Shown here piece by piece: positions 16,118-52,911 of a stretch of DNA of 60,333 nucleotides. This DNA comes from an uncultured Acidobacteriota bacterium. GTDB lineage: Bacteria > Acidobacteriota > Thermoanaerobaculia > Gp7-AA8. Within the stretch, counting starts at the first letter, position 1. Each line of letters starts with the position of its first letter. The notes beneath the pieces were generated by a model, which was not told the DNA's origin, did not search any database, and saw only the letters and a list, made by a program, of their open reading frames with translations. The position numbers were made by a program, and so were the translations under genes. The stretch lies in NCBI GenBank assembly GCA_937870635.1, contig CALMZP010000064.1:1-60333 (forward strand), written 5' to 3'.

Positions 16118-16180
16118 GATTTTGGATTTTGGATTTTGGATTTAGTTCCCGTGGAATCCAAAATCCAAAATCTAAAATCC
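16118..16180. repeat. GATTTTG-family inverted heptad array
   Basis: The left arm is GATTTTG tandem units, with a short loop (TTCCCGTGG) and a right arm of CCAAAAT units. It lies between the CNB-FHA gene and recG. Confidence 0.9.
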
Positions 16181-40899: not shown

Positions 40900-41002
40900 A
40901 TCGACCTTCGACCTTCGACCTTCGACCTTCGGATCCATCAAACGACACCTGTGTCGCTCGGCGTGATCTCAAGGTCGAAGGCCGAAGGTCGAAGGTCGAA
41001 TC
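40900..41002. repeat. TTCGACC-family inverted heptad array
   Basis: Left arm of four TTCGACC units (40900-40931), a loop of about 38 bases, right arm of AAGGTCG units ending GAATCG (40971-41002). It lies between recJ and the lptC/lptA-like gene. Confidence 0.9.
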
Positions 41003-43995: not shown

Positions 43996-45459
43996 ATGGC
44001 ACTAGAACAGAAACTTCACCTCAAACTCTCCCAGAAGCTCATCATGACGCCTTCGCTGCAGCAGGCGATCAAGCTGCTGCAATTGTCCAAACTCGAGCTT
44101 CAGGAAGTCCTCAACCAGGAGCTTCTCGAGAACCCCCTTCTCGAAGAAACCGCCGAAGAAGTGAAGGCCGAAGAGGCCGAGGCGGAGGCTCAGGAGGCGA
44201 AGGCAGCCGACGGACAGGAAGAGCCGAAGAAGACCGAGACCGCCGAGCAGGAGAAGGAGAAGGATTCCTTCGACGAGATCGACTACGACGCCTACTTCCA
44301 GGACTACATCGAGTACGGCTACAACCCCCGCGGGATGGGGGAGGAGCACGAAGAGTTTCCGATCGAGAACACGCTCACCCGCCCGCCCAACCTCACCGAT
44401 CACCTCACCTGGCAGCTGAGCATGAGCGACGCGTCGCCCAACGTGAAAGAGATCGGTGCCTTCATCATCGGCAACATCGACGAGGACGGCTACCTCCGCG
44501 CCACCAACGAGGAGATTGCCTCCTCGGGCAACCACGATCCGGCGGAAGTCGAAAAAGCGGTCAAGGCCATCCAGAGCCTCGACCCGATCGGCGTCGGCGC
44601 GCGCGACCTCCGCGAGTGCCTGCTTCTGCAGCTCGAGTTCCTCGAGCTCGACGTGCCGCTGGTCGAGGAGATCATCCGCGACCACTGGGACATGTTCATG
44701 CAGCGCCACTTCGTGCAGCTGGCGAAGGCGCTCGGCATCGACATGAAGACGCTCGAGGGCGTGGTCGAGATCATCAAGCATCTCGATCCGAAGCCGGGCC
44801 GGAAGTACTCGAACGAGCGCGCCATCTACGTCGAGCCCGACGTTTACGTCCAGAAGGTCGGCGACGAATACGTGATCGTTCTCAACGAGGACGGCATGCC
44901 GAAGCTGCGCATCAACGGCAGCTACCGGGCCATGCTCAACTCGATGGACTCAAAGCAGGACGGCGAGACGGTCAACTACATCAAGGACAAGATCCGCTCG
45001 GCGGTGTGGCTCATCAAGTCACTCGACCAGCGCCAGCGCACGATCTACAAGGTTGCCGAGTCGATCGTGAAGCATCAGCGCGAGTTCCTGGAGAAGGGGA
45101 TCGACTTCCTCCGGCCGCTCGTCCTCCGTGACGTGGCCGACGACATCCAGATGCACGAGTCGACCGTGTCCCGCGTCGTGTCGAACAAGTACATGCACAC
45201 GCCGCGCGGGCTCTTCCTGATGAAGTACTTCTTCCACAGCGGCATCGACTCCGACACGGGTGAGGACATCTCGAGCCTGACCGTGAAGAAGAAGATTCAG
45301 AGCTTCATCGACGCCGAGGACCCGCGGAAGCCGCTGTCCGATTCGAAGATCATGAAGATCCTGAACGACGAGGGCATCAACATCGCCCGGCGCACGGTGG
45401 CGAAGTACCGCGACGAGCTGAACATTCCGTCGTCCACGGATCGGAAGCAGATTTTCTAA
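43996..45459 (+). CDS. rpoN: RNA polymerase sigma-54 factor
   Basis: The 487-aa alternative sigma factor depends on AAA+ activators. Region I has the Gln/Leu-rich activator-binding sequence (LKLSQKLIMTPSLQQAIKLLQLSKLELQ). Region II is acidic (EEVKAEEAEAEAQEAKAADG). The core-binding domain starts at DHLTWQLSMSD. The C-terminal DNA-binding part contains the HTH (VADDIQMHESTVSRVVSNK) and the RpoN box ARRTVAKYRDE (about 465). The last 489 bases are duplicated at 48220-48708. Confidence 0.96.
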   Translation: MALEQKLHLKLSQKLIMTPSLQQAIKLLQLSKLELQEVLNQELLENPLLEETAEEVKAEEAEAEAQEAKAADGQEEPKKTETAEQEKEKDSFDEIDYDAYFQDYIEYGYNPRGMGEEHEEFPIENTLTRPPNLTDHLTWQLSMSDASPNVKEIGAFIIGNIDEDGYLRATNEEIASSGNHDPAEVEKAVKAIQSLDPIGVGARDLRECLLLQLEFLELDVPLVEEIIRDHWDMFMQRHFVQLAKALGIDMKTLEGVVEIIKHLDPKPGRKYSNERAIYVEPDVYVQKVGDEYVIVLNEDGMPKLRINGSYRAMLNSMDSKQDGETVNYIKDKIRSAVWLIKSLDQRQRTIYKVAESIVKHQREFLEKGIDFLRPLVLRDVADDIQMHESTVSRVVSNKYMHTPRGLFLMKYFFHSGIDSDTGEDISSLTVKKKIQSFIDAEDPRKPLSDSKIMKILNDEGINIARRTVAKYRDELNIPSSTDRKQIF

Positions 45460-45537
45460 GACTTCTGCCTTCGTTGTTGCCTGCGCTCTCTTCTGGCGTT
45501 CTCGCCGCGATTCGACCTTGGACCTTGGACCTTGGGC
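44971..45537. repeat. Direct repeat, left copy: rpoN 3' half plus downstream sequence
   Basis: 44971-45459 equals 48220-48708 with about three base changes and no gaps (offset exactly 3249). Similarity continues past the stop at lower identity, through CTTCTGCCTTCGT and CTCGCCGCGATTCGACCTT, to about 45537. Confidence 0.9.
45510..45537. repeat. TTCGACC-family heptads, left arm only
   Basis: ATTCGACCTTGGACCTTGGACCTTGGG-type units after rpoN. The matching right arm is missing here but present after the second rpoN copy (48760-48853), as if the accessory insert cut the array. Confidence 0.75.
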
Positions 45538-45720
45538 TTATCGGCCCATGGCCTTCAGCATCTGCGGCCAGAGGTCCTCGACCTCGTCGATTCCGAACCA
45601 GCAGGCCGGACCGCTCGGAGGGATCACGTCGCAGCATTTCACTGGCGCGAAGACCCCGATTATTTTCCCGTCACGTCGGCGCAGCCTCGAGCCGGCGCTC
45701 ACCGCGTTCGGCGGATAGGT
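45538..45720 (-). pseudogene. Remnant of an unrecognised gene (C-terminal part)
   Basis: The minus frame from about 45720 to a TAA at 45538-45540 reads like a real protein end: GSRLRRRDGKIIGVFAPVKC, then CDVIPPSGPACWFGIDEVED and LWPQMLKAMGR. An in-frame TGA lies immediately upstream at about 45731 and no start is present, so only a fragment survives. Family unknown. Confidence 0.5.
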
Positions 45721-45827
45721 GTCAGGTCTTCATGGCCGGCCACTGCTGGATTGCTGACGGCACGATCCTGTCGAGTACACGACGGCCGGCTTTCGAGGCG
45801 CTTGGGGGCCTTACCCGGCGATCGACT

Positions 45828-45855
45828 GGCCGCGAGAACACTTGTTCTCGCGGCC
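45828..45855 (-). terminator. Perfect 13-bp hairpin at the 3' end of the secreted-protein gene
   Basis: GGCCGCGAGAACA-CT-TGTTCTCGCGGCC is a flawless stem with a 2-base loop, 8 bases beyond the stop of the minus-strand gene. It has no T-run, so it may act as an mRNA 3' stabiliser or a Rho-aided stop. Confidence 0.6.
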
Positions 45856-45862
45856 ATGATTG

Positions 45863-46672
45863 TCACTGGGAAAACATCAACTGAATGTGCTGAGTGGTGT
45901 TGTCTGTCTCCGAAACAAACGCCCAGAGTTTGGCTCCGTCGGTCAGCGGTGTCAACACGATGATATAAGGCCCTGATGAGCGACTGGCGTCGAACAACGG
46001 ATCAAGGGCGATTTGCGTCGCCCACGGTCTGACAGGTAGGGGCCGGTCGTACGGCCAGAGGCTGGTCCGCTGCTTGACGTCAAGGTCGATGGTCGCATCG
46101 TGAACGACGCGCCACGTGAACTGGGCATTCGGCGCAAGAATTTGAAATCGAACGGCGATTCGCGACAGATGGAGATCGAGCGAATAGACACGTAAATGCG
46201 TTCGCTCGTCAACATTGTCCTGCAAGCCAAGGAAATAGATCGGGCGGCTGACGAACTCGCTTTGTCGCACGACAGGCATGGAGATCTCATCAGGCAAGCT
46301 TGCGCCATCCTGTCGAATCACGATCGCCATGTTCACGTCGTCGGACGCCTCTTTCGGTACGTAGATGATCGACCCGGGAGCCTCGAAGTCGCGGGTGGGG
46401 ATGGGCGACGCACTCCAGGGAAGGCCAGCAGGCAGGGGAAGTACCGGGTTGACGTAGTTGAGGCCGTAGACCAGCACGCCGTCACGGCCATTCAGGCCGA
46501 CAAGCGTAGCCGACCAGCGGGAGCCGAATGCGCCAGGGACATCCCGTACAGCAAGCGGTACTAATCGGGCCTCGAGATCAGCAGGTACGTCCTGCGCAAA
46601 AAGACCGCGCATCGCCCCGAGCAGGAGCAATCCAGTCACGACTCGTGTCATCGGTAGCACGGCTAGTTTCAT
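45863..46672 (-). CDS. Secreted protein of unknown function, paralogue of the gene at 2250
   Basis: The 269-aa product has a signal peptide (residues 1-26, ending GLFAQ). It matches the 2250 gene in layout (see that entry) and keeps the full C-terminus TDNTTQHIQLMFSQ. No enzyme motif is visible; the pattern of short hydrophobic strands suggests a beta-rich exported protein. It lies 12 bases downstream of a subtilase gene on the same strand, so it may be co-exported or a substrate or inhibitor of the protease. Lower GC than the flanking rpoN operon. Confidence 0.75.
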   Translation of the reverse strand: MKLAVLPMTRVVTGLLLLGAMRGLFAQDVPADLEARLVPLAVRDVPGAFGSRWSATLVGLNGRDGVLVYGLNYVNPVLPLPAGLPWSASPIPTRDFEAPGSIIYVPKEASDDVNMAIVIRQDGASLPDEISMPVVRQSEFVSRPIYFLGLQDNVDERTHLRVYSLDLHLSRIAVRFQILAPNAQFTWRVVHDATIDLDVKQRTSLWPYDRPLPVRPWATQIALDPLFDASRSSGPYIIVLTPLTDGAKLWAFVSETDNTTQHIQLMFSQ

Positions 46673-46684
46673 GGAGGCGACCTC

Positions 46685-48016
46685 TCAGTAGCTACAGCAG
46701 ATTCGCGTGCGTGGCTGCATCGTGTACAGCAGCAGGTTCGGCGAATTCGCCGGAAGATTCGTCAAGACATTTGACGTCGCCCACGACTTGATCGAGCTTT
46801 CAACCGCGGCCGGATCAAGGAAACCATACTTCTCAAGGCGAATCGCAGCTAATCCGGCAACGTGTGGTGTGGCCGCCGATGTACCCTGAAAAGTGATCTG
46901 CGTACCATAGCGACCGGTCGCTCGAAGGTCATGGCCGGGAGCGAAGATGTCAACGCACTGACCTCCGTTCGATGCCCACGAGACCGGTTCTCCATTGGTA
47001 TTAGCAAACGTAACGACCGAGTCGAACCGGTTCGTAGCTCCTACTGTGATCGCGCTGAACCCATTCGGATTCGACGGAATCATGTTTGGATTTCCAGCCC
47101 TTGCGGGAGATCTCGTACAAGCGTCAACTCCGTCGTTTCCTGCTCCTACGACGACGGTGATACCAGCTGCGACGGCGTCCCGTACGGCAATATCGACCGC
47201 ATCGTAAGTACCGGGGTACTGATGACTGATATTGGCAACCGATTTTGCCATTCCGCTAGCGTCCCGACCCACATGATCATTGACCACCCAATTTAGTGCC
47301 TTGATCAGGTTGTTGGTGTTGCTCCAACTCTGACCCACACCGGCTGACCAGATTTGCACGTCTTTGAATCGCACCGTACGTGCCACCCCGAAAAGTGATC
47401 CGCCGAGGATGCTCGCGACCGGCGTGCCATGGCCGTCATAGTCGACATCGAACTCGCCGTACGTCGCACCCCATGTAGACGACTGGCACGAAGCATCAGC
47501 GGACCAGCACTGCATGTGAGCATCGATTCGCCCAGCGAGGTCCCCGACGTTGTTTATCCCGCTGTCGAGTACGTACGCGACGACGCCGTCGCCAGAATAT
47601 GACCACGCGTACTGGCCGTCCATTTCTGCTTGATATCTCACGTCGACCCGATCGAGGCCCCATGACCGAGCCGTGTCCAAGCCGCTACCCGTTGGATACA
47701 TGCGCACGACCTCGTGGACACTGTCAACTCCGGGTTCCTCGCTGAGTTTGATCGCGACTGCCTCGGGCAGTTCAACTCCGAATCAACCGAGCACGCGGTC
47801 AAAGAGGCCTATGACTTTTCCGTTATGCTTCTTCGATAGCGATTGAGCCAGCGAAGCTGCATGGGGTTTGTGTGTCTCCGCAAGGACAACGATGTACTGT
47901 CCCGGGACATTGTCGTGATAGCGGCGAAACTTCGCACCCGATTGACCGGCCGCGATAGTAGCCCAAGCGAACAACATGACCACTGTTACACATCTATAAA
48001 GGAATTTGGTTGACAT
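46685..48016 (-). pseudogene. Secreted subtilisin-like serine protease interrupted by an in-frame TGA
   Basis: The reading frame is continuous from ATG 48016 to the stop at 46685 except for one TGA at 47783-47785. The first part (77 aa) has a signal peptide and an I9 propeptide (VPGQYIVVLAETHKPHAASL). After the TGA the propeptide continues (FGVELPEAVAIKLSEEPGVDSVHEV), then the S8 domain: Asp in VVAYVLDSGI, His in DGHGTPVASILGG, Asn in VVVGAGNDG, Ser in GTSAATPHVAGLAAI. Family members usually have Gly before the F, so GGA to TGA is the simplest event. Cys-rich end (RTRICCSY). A distal restart at 47707 would lack secretion and propeptide. Confidence 0.85.
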
Positions 48017-48147
48017 CGGATCTCCAGGTTGGATTTGTCCGCGCGCTTGAATTACCGCGTGGATGCGAGACGTAACTATGTCGTGGCTCGTCGTATTCCA
48101 CGGATGTACGGCCAGGAATAGGGAATGAGTGAGGGCACTGCTGAGCC
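48017..48147. other. Upstream region of the subtilase gene, lower GC
   Basis: A short region between the protease start and the truncated second rpoN copy. A GGAG ribosome site lies upstream of the protease ATG on the minus strand. No further gene is seen. Confidence 0.35.
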
Positions 48148-48708
48148 GTGAAGGACGCGGTCACTCGACCCGTAGCGCCACGGTGCGACTCATTGGCGGA
48201 TTGCTCGCTCGACGCCACCGTCAACTACATCAAGGACAAGATCCGCTCCGCGGTGTGGCTCATCAAGTCACTCGACCAGCGCCAGCGCACGATCTACAAG
48301 GTTGCCGAGTCGATCGTGAAGCATCAGCGCGAGTTCCTGGAGAAGGGGATCGACTTCCTCCGGCCGCTCGTCCTCCGTGACGTGGCCGACGACATCCAGA
48401 TGCACGAGTCGACCGTGTCCCGCGTCGTGTCGAACAAGTACATGCACACGCCGCGCGGGCTCTTCCTGATGAAGTACTTCTTCCACAGCGGCATCGACTC
48501 CGACACGGGTGAGGACATCTCGAGCCTGACCGTGAAGAAGAAGATTCAGAGCTTCATCGACGCCGAGGACCCGCGGAAGCCGCTGTCCGATTCGAAGATC
48601 ATGAAGATCCTGAACGACGAGGGCATCAACATCGCCCGGCGCACGGTGGCGAAGTACCGCGACGAGCTCAACATTCCGTCGTCGACGGATCGGAAGCAGA
48701 TTTTCTAA
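48148..48708 (+). pseudogene. Duplicated C-terminal fragment of sigma-54 (rpoN)
   Basis: From 48220 on it repeats the last 163 residues of RpoN including the HTH and RpoN box (ARRTVAKYRDELNIPSS), identical in protein apart from the junction. The first 24 residues come from unrelated sequence. A GTG at 48148 could allow translation into a 186-aa promoter-binding fragment without core-binding or activator regions. It is most simply the severed native 3' end, or a copy brought by the insert. Confidence 0.85.
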
Positions 48709-48795
48709 GGTCTTCTGCCTTCGTCCCTCGCCAGCGCGCTTCTTTTGGCGATCTCGCCGCGATTCGACCTTCGACCTCCGACCCTCGACCTTCGG
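48220..48795. repeat. Direct repeat, right copy: rpoN 3' half plus downstream sequence
   Basis: Partner of 44971-45537. The repeats bracket 45538-48219, which holds the protease, the secreted protein and the remnant. Confidence 0.9.
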
Positions 48796-48853
48796 GCCGC
48801 TTCACCTGAAACAGCCCGGAACGCCCGAAGGTCCAAGGTCGAAGGTCGAATCC
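48760..48853. repeat. TTCGACC-family inverted heptad array
   Basis: Left arm ATTCGACCTTCGACCTCCGACC..., loop TTCGGGCCGCTTCACCTGAAACAGCCCGGAACG, right arm GAAGGTCCAAGGTCGAAGGTCGAATC. It separates the rpoN copy from hpf. Confidence 0.9.
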
Positions 48854-48912
48854 CCCCGGAGCCGGAAAGGTTCCGAACCACCTTGGCCCGAGGTTCGCTA
48901 CTCCGTTAAGGC

Positions 48913-49251
48913 ATGTCGACCGAAATCACTGCCCGCAATTTCGACCTCACTCCTGACATCCGCCAGCTGCTCGAGTCGAAGCTCAGCAAAATCGAGGATC
49001 GTCTCTTCGACGATGTCATCGAAACCCGCGTCGTCCTCGACGTGCAGAAATACCGTTTCATCTGCGAGATCATGATGGTCGGGAAGGATCACGACGTGAA
49101 AGTGGTCCAGGAATCCGACAACTCCATGCAGGACGCCGTGAACGCGGCGATCGACCATGCCCGGCGCCAGGCCTCGAAGCACCGCGAGCGCATCACAGAC
49201 CACCGCCGGAACGAGGCTTCACCCGACGCTCTCGACACCTCCGGGCGGTGA
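48913..49251 (+). CDS. Short HPF/RaiA-type ribosome hibernation factor
   Basis: The 112-aa product consists of the N-terminal ribosome-binding domain only: ITARNFDLTPDIRQLLESKLSKIEDRL, VVLDVQKYRFICEIMMVGKDHDVKV, SMQDAVNAAIDHARRQASKHRERI. It occupies the mRNA/tRNA channel of resting ribosomes. It is about 75% identical to the first domain of the long HPF that follows, so the two arose by tandem duplication. Confidence 0.9.
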   Translation: MSTEITARNFDLTPDIRQLLESKLSKIEDRLFDDVIETRVVLDVQKYRFICEIMMVGKDHDVKVVQESDNSMQDAVNAAIDHARRQASKHRERITDHRRNEASPDALDTSGR

Positions 49252-49330
49252 CCCCCGGCACTGGCCGCCCACCCTTCCCGGCATTAGGATAAGGGTGTGT
49301 ATCGAAATGTTCCTTGAAAGAGGTGCCTGA

Positions 49331-49906
49331 ATGCCTACAGAGATCTCCGGCCGGAATTACGACGTCAGCCCGAAAATCCGCGACCTGATCACGTCAAAGC
49401 TGTCGAAGGTCGAGGAGCGGCTCTTCGATGACGTCATCGACGTACGCGTCGTCCTCGACGTTCAGAAGTACCGGAACATCTGCGAGATCATCATCGTCGG
49501 CAAGGATCACGATGTGAAGGCCGTCCAGGAGTCGGAAGACTCGATGCAGGACGCCATCAACGCCGCCATCGACCACGTCAAACGGCAGGCCCAGAAAAAC
49601 CGCAACAAGATCCGCGACCACCGGAATGGCGGCCGCGCCAAAGGCGCCGGCAAGACGACCATCGACGAATGGGCGGTGCAGGTCTTCGAGCCGGGACGTT
49701 TCCGCGAGGAAGCGGACCAGAGCCGCCGGCGGATCATCAAGACGAGCAATCTGCCCATCCGCCCGATGTCGATCGAGCACGCCGCGCTGCTGCTCGACGA
49801 CTCGAAGAACGAGTTCATCGTCTTCCGCGACCTCGATACCGACAAGGTGTCGGTGATCTACAAGCGGAAAGACAGCAACCTGGGCCTCATTTCGCCGGAG
49901 TTCTAG
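49331..49906 (+). CDS. hpf: Long-form ribosome hibernation promoting factor
   Basis: The 191-aa product has the ribosome-binding domain (residues 1-100, ISGRNYDVSPKIRDLITSKLSKVEERL) and, after a basic linker (GGRAKGAGKTT), the C-terminal dimerisation domain (RIIKTSNLPIRPMSIEHAALLLDDSKNEFIVFRD...VIYKRKDSNLGLISPEF). Long HPF dimerises ribosomes into 100S particles. AGAGGTGCC upstream is a modest ribosome site. Position behind rpoN is conserved. Confidence 0.95.
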   Translation: MPTEISGRNYDVSPKIRDLITSKLSKVEERLFDDVIDVRVVLDVQKYRNICEIIIVGKDHDVKAVQESEDSMQDAINAAIDHVKRQAQKNRNKIRDHRNGGRAKGAGKTTIDEWAVQVFEPGRFREEADQSRRRIIKTSNLPIRPMSIEHAALLLDDSKNEFIVFRDLDTDKVSVIYKRKDSNLGLISPEF

Positions 49907-49925
49907 TCCAGTCCTCGGAGCGGGA

Positions 49926-49997
49926 GATTTTGGATTTTGGATTTTGGATTTTGGATTGCGCACAAATGCAAAATCGGCGATCCAAAATCCAAAATCC
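49926..49997. repeat. GATTTTG-family inverted heptad array
   Basis: Left arm GATTTTG units, loop GCGCACAAATGC, right arm CCAAAAT units with one decayed unit (AAAATCGGCGA). It lies between hpf and hprK. Confidence 0.9.
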
Positions 49998-50032
49998 CCC
50001 CGGTTCCCGGTCCGCGCTAAACTGGGCGAATC

Positions 50033-51109
50033 ATGACACCGGAGGACTTTGTCCAGACGAGCGTGAGGTCCCTGGTGACGGACGATCACCTCGAGGATCT
50101 GGCGCTGCGCCTCATCGTCGGCGACGACGGCCTGGACCGGATCATCGCCCGCCCGCGCGTCCAGAAACCGGGTCTGGCCTTCGCCGGCTACTACGAGTAC
50201 ATCAAGCCGTGGCGCGTGCAGATCATCGGCGAGTCGGAAACGAAGTATCTGCAGAGCCTCCCTCCGCGCCTGCGCGAGAAACGCGTTCGCGACGTGGCCG
50301 GCCTCGACGTCTCCTGCTTCGTGGTCACGAAGGGCATCATTCCCCTCGACGAATTCCGGCAGGAGTGCGAGAAGCGCTCGGTGCCTCTCTTCTCCACGCC
50401 CTCGCTCTCGTCGACGACGATCAACCGCATCACGTACTTCCTCGAAGAGACGATGGCGCCGCGGGTGACCATGCACTCCGGCCTCCTCGACGTCTACGGG
50501 ATCGGCGTGCTGCTCCTCGGTGAGAGCGGCATCGGCAAGAGCGAATGCGCGCTCGACCTCGTCTATCGCGGCCACCGCCTGATCGCCGACGACATGGTCG
50601 TCATCCGCCGCCACCCGAACGATGTGCTCCTCGGCTATTCGAACGATCTGCTGCGCCACCACATGGAGCTGCGCGGCATCGGCATCATCGACATCAAGGA
50701 TCTCTTCGGCGTCGCGTCCACGCGGGACGTGAAGCCGATCGACCTCGTGGTCCGCCTCGAGAAGTGGGTGGAAGGCACCGAATACGACCGCCTCGGCGTC
50801 ATCGGCGAACAGTACGAGCTCCTCGGTGTCACCAAACCGTTCGTCCGGCTGCCCGTCGCCTCGGGCCGCAATCTCGCACTGCTCGTGGAGATCGCCGCGC
50901 GCAACCATCTGATGAAGCTTCAGGGATACGATTCGGCGCGCGAATTCACGCGCCGGATCGACGAGCAGATCGCCAGGAAGGGGAGCGCCGTTTCGGAGTC
51001 GCTGCCCACCGCGCCGCCGGAATCGGCGGTCAGCTCCGAGATTCGCAGCGTGCACACGCGCACGCGATTCAACCCTGATGTTCTCGACCGCACCCGACGG
51101 CAGAGATAG
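50033..51109 (+). CDS. hprK: HPr kinase/phosphorylase
   Basis: A 358-aa bifunctional enzyme that phosphorylates and dephosphorylates Ser46 of HPr. The catalytic P-loop is GESGIGKSE (163-171), then LVYRGHRLIADDMVVIRR and MELRGIGIIDIKDLFGVAS, the K/P-loop and signature region. The N-terminal DRTGG-like half (residues 1-130) is present. The C-terminal 45 residues are an extra, weakly conserved tail. HPr at 53539 keeps the Ser46 target. Confidence 0.95.
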   Translation: MTPEDFVQTSVRSLVTDDHLEDLALRLIVGDDGLDRIIARPRVQKPGLAFAGYYEYIKPWRVQIIGESETKYLQSLPPRLREKRVRDVAGLDVSCFVVTKGIIPLDEFRQECEKRSVPLFSTPSLSSTTINRITYFLEETMAPRVTMHSGLLDVYGIGVLLLGESGIGKSECALDLVYRGHRLIADDMVVIRRHPNDVLLGYSNDLLRHHMELRGIGIIDIKDLFGVASTRDVKPIDLVVRLEKWVEGTEYDRLGVIGEQYELLGVTKPFVRLPVASGRNLALLVEIAARNHLMKLQGYDSAREFTRRIDEQIARKGSAVSESLPTAPPESAVSSEIRSVHTRTRFNPDVLDRTRRQR

Positions 51110-51118
51110 GAGTCAACG

Positions 51119-52048
51119 ATGATCCGCAGCATCGCCCTTGTCGCTATTTTTGTCTTGATCGCAGGCTGCCAGCAGGAGAAGCCCGCCCCCACGGCCACGA
51201 CGCCGGAACCGGCGCCGACCGCTACACAACCGGCGAAGGCCGCGCCGATCGTGCTTTCCGAAGGCTTCAGCACGCCGGAGTCGGTCCTTTACGACGCCGA
51301 GAAGGACGTCTACTACGTCAGCAACATCAACGGCAGTCCCGTGGAGCAGGACGGCAATGGGTACATCTCGCGCGTGAATCCGGAGACGCTCGCGGTCGAA
51401 GCGAAGTGGATCGAAGGCGGCCGCAACAGCGCACAGCTCGGAGCGCCGAAGGGGATGGCCATCGTCGGCGACGAGCTGTGGGTCAGCGACATCACCTTCA
51501 TCCGCAAGTTCGACCGCAAGACGGGCGCGTGGAAATCTTCGGTCACCATCCCGGGAGCGACTTTCCTCAACGACATGGCCGCCGATGGCAGCAACGTCTA
51601 CGTGTCCGACAGCGGCATGAAGATGGAGGGCGGCAACTTCGTCGGGACGAATACTGACGCGGTGTGGTCGCTGGCCGGAGCGCAGCCGAAGCGCTTCGCG
51701 GCGGCGATGAATCTGAATCGGCCCAACGGGCTCGCCGTCAGCGGGGGCAAGTTGTGGGCCGTGTCGTTCGCGGGGTCGGAGCTCTACGACATCACGGACG
51801 GCAAGAAGGGACAGGTCACCACACTGCCCGCGGGAAGCCTCGACGGACTCGTCCCGATTCCTGACGGTTCCTTCCTCGTCTCGAGCTGGGATGCGAAGAC
51901 GGTGTTCCGCGGAACGCCCGGCGGGACGTTCCAGCCGGTGGTGCAGAACGTCGAGTCGCCGGCCGACATCGGCTTCGATTCGAAGCGCAGCCGCATCCTG
52001 ATTCCTCACTTCACGGAGAACCGCGTCTCGATTCATCCGCTCGAATGA
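51119..52048 (+). CDS. NHL/SMP-30-like beta-propeller lipoprotein
   Basis: The 309-aa product has a lipobox LIAGC (Cys17), a Pro/Thr/Ala-rich spacer, then a six-bladed-type propeller: ESVLYDAEKDVYYVSNINGS, GMAIVGDELWVSDITFIRKF, LNDMAADGSNVYVSDSGMK, NGLAVSGGKLWAVSFAGSELY. Family members include gluconolactonase-like enzymes and ligand-binding propellers. It stands between hprK and rapZ, where no envelope protein is expected. The stop overlaps the rapZ ATG. Confidence 0.8.
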   Translation: MIRSIALVAIFVLIAGCQQEKPAPTATTPEPAPTATQPAKAAPIVLSEGFSTPESVLYDAEKDVYYVSNINGSPVEQDGNGYISRVNPETLAVEAKWIEGGRNSAQLGAPKGMAIVGDELWVSDITFIRKFDRKTGAWKSSVTIPGATFLNDMAADGSNVYVSDSGMKMEGGNFVGTNTDAVWSLAGAQPKRFAAAMNLNRPNGLAVSGGKLWAVSFAGSELYDITDGKKGQVTTLPAGSLDGLVPIPDGSFLVSSWDAKTVFRGTPGGTFQPVVQNVESPADIGFDSKRSRILIPHFTENRVSIHPLE

Positions 52049-52911
52049 AAGCTCCTGAGTACCTGGTCATCATCACCGGGCTCTCCGGCTCCGGTAAGTC
52101 GTACGTCCAGTCGACGCTCGAAGACCTCGGCTTCTACTGCACGGACAATCTGCCGGTCGCTCTGATCGAGCCGTTTCTGCAGGAGGTCTCTGAGCACGAG
52201 AAGGCGACGCGCGTCGGCATCGTCGCCGACGTTCGGACGCACGATTTCGCGACGATCTTTCCAGACTTCTATCGCGATCGGCTGCAGAAGCTCGTGCCGC
52301 ACGCGATCCTGATCTTCCTCGAGGCGACGGATGAAGTGCTCGCTCGCCGGTTCTCGGAGACGCGCCGTCCACATCCGCTGGCCAAGGATCTGCCGATCGA
52401 GGAGGCCATCCGCGCCGAGCGTCTGGCCCTCACCGAGGTGAAGTCGATCGCGAATCTCGTGCTCGACACGTCGCAGTTCTCCGTGCACGAGTTGAAAGCG
52501 GAGGTGATGAAGCGCTTCCAGCTCGACGGCAATGACGTGTCGATGCTCATCACGCTGATCAGCTTCGGCTTCAAGTACAGCCAGCCTTACAACCTCGATC
52601 TCCTCTTCGACGTCCGTTTTCTCCCGAACCCGCATTTCGTCCCCGAGCTCAGGCCGAAAACCGGAGTCGATCCGGAGATCATCGAGTACCTCCGGCAGCA
52701 GCCCGAATACGAGGAGTTCTACCGCCGTCTCCGCGATTTCGTGGGTTACCTTTTGCCGCAGTACCGCAAGGAGATGAAGAGTTACCTGACCATCGGAATC
52801 GGTTGCACTGGCGGACGCCACCGCAGCGTCGCCATCGCCCAGCGCCTCGGCGAGGACCTCGAGAAAGAGGGCCATACTGTCGAGATCGTGCACCGTGACT
52901 GCCGGAGATAG
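52045..52911 (+). CDS. rapZ: RapZ-family nucleotide-binding RNA adapter
   Basis: The 288-aa product has a Walker A GLSGSGKS (12-19), YCTDNLPVALIEPFLQEV, VADVRTHDF, and the C-terminal IGCTGGRHRSVAIAQRLGEDL with DVRFLPNPHFVPELRPKTGVD. In E. coli RapZ controls glucosamine-6-phosphate synthase mRNA through an sRNA. In other phyla it is linked to PTS regulation, as the genes here suggest. Confidence 0.94.
   Translation: MKAPEYLVIITGLSGSGKSYVQSTLEDLGFYCTDNLPVALIEPFLQEVSEHEKATRVGIVADVRTHDFATIFPDFYRDRLQKLVPHAILIFLEATDEVLARRFSETRRPHPLAKDLPIEEAIRAERLALTEVKSIANLVLDTSQFSVHELKAEVMKRFQLDGNDVSMLITLISFGFKYSQPYNLDLLFDVRFLPNPHFVPELRPKTGVDPEIIEYLRQQPEYEEFYRRLRDFVGYLLPQYRKEMKSYLTIGIGCTGGRHRSVAIAQRLGEDLEKEGHTVEIVHRDCRR

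Follow-up and report, generated by a model that had tools for sequence, protein, structure and literature searches.

A tandem pair of short and long HPF genes in a family of Acidobacteriota

Two adjacent genes for hibernation factors (HPF), a short one (hpfS) followed by a long one (hpfL), have been identified in the window, i.e. the whole stretch of 60,333 bp analysed here (Table 1). The host is a soil acidobacterium, uncultured. Pfam detected in the hpfS product PF02482 alone (64.2 bits; cut-off 23.7), PF16321 being absent, and in the hpfL product both PF02482 (65.0 bits) and PF16321 (58.2 bits), the latter covering positions 3-57 of 57. Membership in the HPF/RaiA family is indicated for both by TIGR00741 (hpfS 51.9 bits, hpfL 59.4 bits; cut-off 40.9). 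The two proteins are 65% identical over 110 aa, and about 71% identical when the domain alone is compared (99 aligned codons). Coordinates, Pfam domains and identity confirm what the preliminary description had reported, a copy limited to domain 1 placed just before a very similar long HPF. In the entire genome (4.52 Mb, 98.7% complete, 171 contigs, 2.98% contamination) PF02482 has two matches, hpfS and hpfL. RMF (PF04957) has none across the same genome, the E. coli control being positive, and an E. coli-type system made of RMF and a short HPF was not encountered. Because RMF was not found in the genome, 100S formation should depend on hpfL. The hpfS product scored below the cut-off with the equivalog models of both RaiA/YfiA (NF007654; 29.6 bits, cut-off 158) and E. 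coli short HPF (NF007780; 41.1 bits, cut-off 125). By the NF007654 model it is not a RaiA, though it may work in a RaiA-like manner.

Table 1. Features of the rpoN-hpf-hprK region in the window
Feature	Coordinates	Strand	Description
complete rpoN, 487 aa	43996..45459	+	full gene, 3.2 kb upstream of the partial copy
partial rpoN ORF	48148-48708	+	sigma-54 DNA-binding domain only (Pfam)
rpoN 3'-end duplicate plus ~75 bp past the stop	48217..48783	+	97% DNA identity over 567 bp to 44968-45531
hpfS, short HPF, 112 aa	48913..49251	+	S30AE (ribosome-binding) domain alone; 12-residue tail predicted disordered
intergenic gap hpfS-hpfL, 79 bp	49252..49330	+	Shine-Dalgarno GAGGTG and possible -10 TAGGAT (both by eye)
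hpfL, long HPF, 191 aa	49331..49906	+	S30AE domain, then C-terminal dimerisation domain
hprK (HPr kinase/phosphorylase)	50033..51109	+	conserved neighbour; beyond hpf in most relatives' loci
rapZ	52045..52911	+	conserved neighbour

The pair had been placed behind rpoN. This does not hold in the window, where the adjoining ORF is a fragment encoding the DNA-binding domain and the complete gene lies farther upstream, and it does hold in two relatives, G006 and G008, in which rpoN is intact and directly precedes the pair. The partial ORF matches complete rpoN at 163 of 163 aa. In the coding part the two copies show few differences, which are located at both ends, about 400 bp in the middle being identical; the sequence past the stop codon has drifted. 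Such a pattern suggests a duplication whose copies were later homogenised by gene conversion. If expressed, a sigma-54 DNA-binding domain on its own could sit on sigma-54 promoters without polymerase. Three minus-strand ORFs of 269, 340 and 77 aa reside between the rpoN copies (45863-48016). The 340- and 77-aa ORFs look by eye like two pieces of one subtilisin-type protease interrupted by a frame break. An hpf remnant was sought inside the inserted stretch (45400-48200), and not found. The gap from the stop of partial rpoN to hpfS measures 204 bp, versus 13-114 bp from rpoN to the first hpf gene at 16 loci of relatives. The partial rpoN copy and the intervening minus-strand ORFs therefore cut the hpf pair of the window off from rpoN. 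On the 3' side the pair is followed by hprK, a 309-aa ORF without Pfam match, and rapZ.

Repeated sequences are found in the window. About six copies of GATTTTGGATTTTGGATT, each trailed by an exact or near-exact reverse complement no more than tens of bases away, occur in the 60 kb, at 16118, 26283, 34837, 49926, 52928, 59296 and nearby; the copies at 49926 and 52928 are intergenic. Inverted repeats built on TTCGACCTTCGACC / GGTCGAAGGTCGAA are located at 48763-48850, just 5' of hpfS, and at 40907-41000.

The hpfL start is preceded by a good Shine-Dalgarno sequence, the GAGGTG spotted by eye, and by TAGGAT about 45 bp 5' of the ATG. The Shine-Dalgarno sequence of hpfS is poor (AAGG, one base from the ATG). 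Scanning 48100-50100 with the sigma-70 consensus revealed no plus-strand promoter, the 79-bp gap included. A sigma-54 promoter for hpfS at 48884-48899 (TGGCCCGAGGTTCGCT), which matches the -24/-12 consensus with two mismatches, was considered and discarded: its implied start site falls about 3 bases before the hpfS ATG, a similar site is absent by eye from the 13-29 bp gaps between rpoN and the short gene of relatives, and sigma-54-like matches in the window are 3, against 6.8 expected by chance. In both G006 and G008 the short gene begins 13-29 bp past the rpoN stop, a spacing which suggests co-transcription. In the same genomes, members of genus g5, the long gene may have its own promoter, since TACGATAG, a possible -10 element, is found 5 bp before its ATG at all the pair loci of the genus (G006, G008:C75 and G008:C125); in G009 it likewise precedes the long gene, which there is single. 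The motif, absent from the window, was spotted first and counted later. Six copies are present in the 154,585 bp of 20 loci, four just before the long gene (three in genus g5) and two before hprK; as about five matches are expected anyway in 154,585 bp, both strands included, it is notable by placement only.

The AlphaFold2 model of the hpfS product (mean pLDDT 76.9) features the E-H-E-E-E-H order of the beta-alpha-beta-beta-beta-alpha HPF fold, pLDDT being under 50 in the tail past residue 100. Its best Foldseek match is Vibrio HPF (4hei, TMt 0.92), with E. coli and Coxiella HPF also among the best; judging by their titles, the 38 PDB chains matched at E <= 0.001 belong to HPF/YfiA-type proteins or to ribosome entries. 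Identity to the Vibrio and E. coli short HPF chains is only 27-29%. The best solved relatives of hpfL are the long HPFs of S. aureus (5nd8), Listeria (8uu4) and L. lactis (5myj). The last helix of hpfS retains R85, K89 and R91, and K84 is replaced by R; residues 77-100 carry a net charge of +4, versus +5 in hpfL. At 45 sites invariant in the long proteins of 13 relatives, the short proteins are changed at 7 (window), 7 (G006), 0 (G008:C75) and 2 (G008:C125) positions. Four of the seven changes in the window protein fall in the last helix (K84R, Q88S, N90H and R95T). Site N49 is F in the window short protein, and Y in that of G006. Given the changes at invariant sites, binding of the window short protein could be weaker. 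The tails of the four short proteins are net negative, from -1 to -4.

The tandem pair is rare in Acidobacteriota and lineage-specific. A survey of relatives, proposed along with the preliminary description, found it again, and the short gene conserved as a protein. S30AE matches are present in 16 of the 18 genomes of the family, and an adjacent pair in three, the window genome included. Carriers belong to two genera, g1 (window genome) and g5 (G006 and G008), and G007, also in g5, has the long gene only. In G008 the pair resides also in a second contig, broken by the contig end; as its identity to the first is 80% over 3.7 kb, it comes probably from a different species placed in one bin with it. 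The two loci (L035 and L036, i.e. G008:C75 and G008:C125) are two versions of the rpoN-hpf region in one metagenome bin. At the class level at least two S30AE matches were found in 12 of 147 genomes, adjacent to each other in those three only; at the phylum level, in 44 of 297 Acidobacteriota genomes, nearly all unlinked. Among the latter, the matches of 38 were positioned in one listing and none is adjacent; the other six are G000 and G006, with the pair, and G013, G029, G032 and G073, without it. To be considered in reading these counts, G008 is outside the phylum sample, the family, class and phylum samples overlap, and fragmented assemblies could hide pairs. In many Acidobacteriota the second S30AE match is divergent, unlinked and weak in score, and resides often in an open frame of about 110-190 aa (e.g. 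locus L051 in G013:C24). Opposing genomes with a long HPF to genomes with separate short forms is too sharp a division, considering these 44 genomes and Legionella, described as having both (PMC12977618). In the titles and abstract openings of the open-licence PMC papers retrieved no tandem short-long HPF pair is described, which is weak evidence of absence.

By sequence comparison hpfS is a local paralogue of hpfL, and short copies arose once or twice. In the domain tree (24 rows) the window short groups with the window long (support 86/79), and the three other shorts are placed apart from it (84/87); a single clade including all shorts was not rejected by the AU test (p 0.251). The branch of the window short is 0.33 long, that of the window long 0.073. 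Relative-rate counts point to the short as the faster copy with two outgroups out of four (19:4, 16:5), the other two giving 11:9 and 9:11. The G008:C75 short is a mosaic, as the second half of the protein is identical to that of C125, and the first half is not. For the pair of shorts from G006 and G008:C125, dN is 0.11 and dS 0.91 (dN/dS about 0.12); for the longs from G006 and G008:C75, dN is 0.087 and dS 0.80. The dN/dS of the shorts is similar to that of the longs, and the short gene is therefore kept as a protein; on these ratios, it is under purifying selection. Between the window short and its long dN is 0.215 and dS 0.94. In 5000 neutral simulations made for the window copy, no run at dS 0.47 and 0.3% of those at dS 0.25 ended with 29 or fewer amino-acid changes. 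Frames without stops were obtained in 12% of the neutral runs at dS 0.47, and the absence of stops alone is weak evidence.

The best explanation, to which we attach slightly better than even confidence, is that hpfS is a functional paralogue which silences 70S ribosomes as monomers, and lowers 100S formation by hpfL. The gene would derive from an S30AE domain duplicated in tandem within the rpoN-hpf-hprK locus, and would never have gained, or would have lost, the dimerisation domain. On the 30S subunit its product would occupy the decoding site, as the first domain of hpfL does, and would keep 70S ribosomes silent as monomers, like YfiA/RaiA. Because one site cannot hold both proteins, at rising hpfS abundance a smaller share of ribosomes should be joined into 100S by hpfL. 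Site, silencing and failure to dimerise are suggested by published work on relatives. In long HPFs the first domain binds the decoding site, and the second joins ribosomes. In S. aureus 100S formation is lost with HPF residues 1-100, and the N-terminal domain alone silences ribosomes much like YfiA, according to the authors (PMC5620080); in L. lactis dimerisation is abolished in a long HPF deprived of its C-terminal part (PMC5620043). In the light of these truncation experiments, a 70S silencer unable to dimerise ribosomes is the natural reading of hpfS. Antagonism between hpfS and hpfL is plausible; competition for the site, and any regulated switch, we only infer. E. coli RaiA holds 70S ribosomes monomeric and antagonises 100S (PMC5620043, PMC12977618). 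Legionella lacking raiA has more 100S, but the gain persists in the absence of long HPF (PMC12977618), and is hence not explained by competition with it. Moreover, a separate antagonist is not strictly needed, since too much long HPF by itself reduces 100S (PMC6177447). The poor Shine-Dalgarno sequence of hpfS, and the lack of a short gene in most relatives in the family, also count against the mechanism.

Other scenarios can be envisaged. The short gene could be a plain second silencer, made under conditions other than those of the long gene (with rpoN in relatives), and provide added protection with no relevant antagonism of dimerisation in the cell. Its closeness to rpoN in G006 and G008, and a promoter possibly owned by the long gene, as hinted at by TACGATAG, fit this picture, which deserves serious consideration, yet is unlikely on the whole: any protein lodging in the site common to both would become a competitor when abundant, and the promoter reading is post hoc and finds no TACGATAG in the window. 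Somewhat more doubtful is a bolder version of events, in which the dimerisation domain was dropped twice independently, at the same locus and in one family, each time making a dedicated antagonist of ribosome dimerisation beside the parent gene, the short gene being attached to the rpoN operon and the long one served by a promoter of its own.

Pseudogene and artefact readings are unlikely. The window short might be a relaxed duplicate which is being lost, kept for now, weakly made and of little function. The longer branch, the faster change seen with two of the four outgroups, the weak ribosome-binding site, the severing from rpoN by the insertion and the lack of the gene in most relatives are what one would expect of such a relic; amino-acid changes far below neutral in a frame which is still open, and shorts in relatives about as constrained as the longs, make it improbable. 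We give very little credit to the hypothesis that dimerisation is favoured by the short protein together with some RMF-like partner, on the model of short HPF and RMF in E. coli. Among solved structures the closest are indeed Vibrio, E. coli and Coxiella short HPFs, but the identity to the Vibrio and E. coli chains is low, no RMF match is present in the genome, and hpfS is by origin a local paralogue of a long HPF. Hardly credible is an error of the draft assembly as the origin of the pair or of its rpoN fragment. The number of contigs and the contamination leave some room for it, and the duplicated rpoN 3' end, in which about 400 bases are the same in both copies, is the kind of sequence which assemblers can misjoin. 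The pair, however, was seen again in two other assemblies and in one further diverged contig, and at about 71% protein identity over the domain the hpf genes are not one gene assembled twice.

The significance of ribosome dimerisation remains unclear (PMC5620080), and why ribosomes should be dimerised when single silencing seems enough is an open question. Natural close paralogues with and without the dimerisation domain represent a matched set for testing silencing separately from dimerisation. The principle of a short S30AE silencer beside a dimerising form is already known in other bacteria, and the tandem is a rare, lineage-specific variant of it, a modest local elaboration.

Among known systems, the long HPFs of the S. 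aureus, L. lactis and T. thermophilus type share both domains with hpfL, and the first only with hpfS; the accounts drawn on here describe one long HPF, and mention no adjacent short paralogue (PMC5620080, PMC5620043, PMC6177447). The S. aureus HPF 1-100 comes near to hpfS in architecture and yields no 100S, but is a laboratory construct rather than a gene occurring in nature next to its full-length form (PMC5620080). E. coli YfiA/RaiA and short HPF have one S30AE domain, as hpfS. Yet, RaiA blocks RMF via its C terminus (PMC5620043), and the genome analysed here yielded no RMF match. In Legionella pneumophila, as reported, LhpF and RaiA are likewise a long and a short S30AE protein in the absence of RMF, competition for a single site has been proposed, and loss of the short protein raises 100S (PMC12977618). 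In contrast to the adjacent close paralogues described in this work, the two Legionella proteins are encoded by separate genes (Lpg1206 and Lpg0467), and the C-terminal domain of LhpF departs from that usual in long HPFs (PMC12977618).
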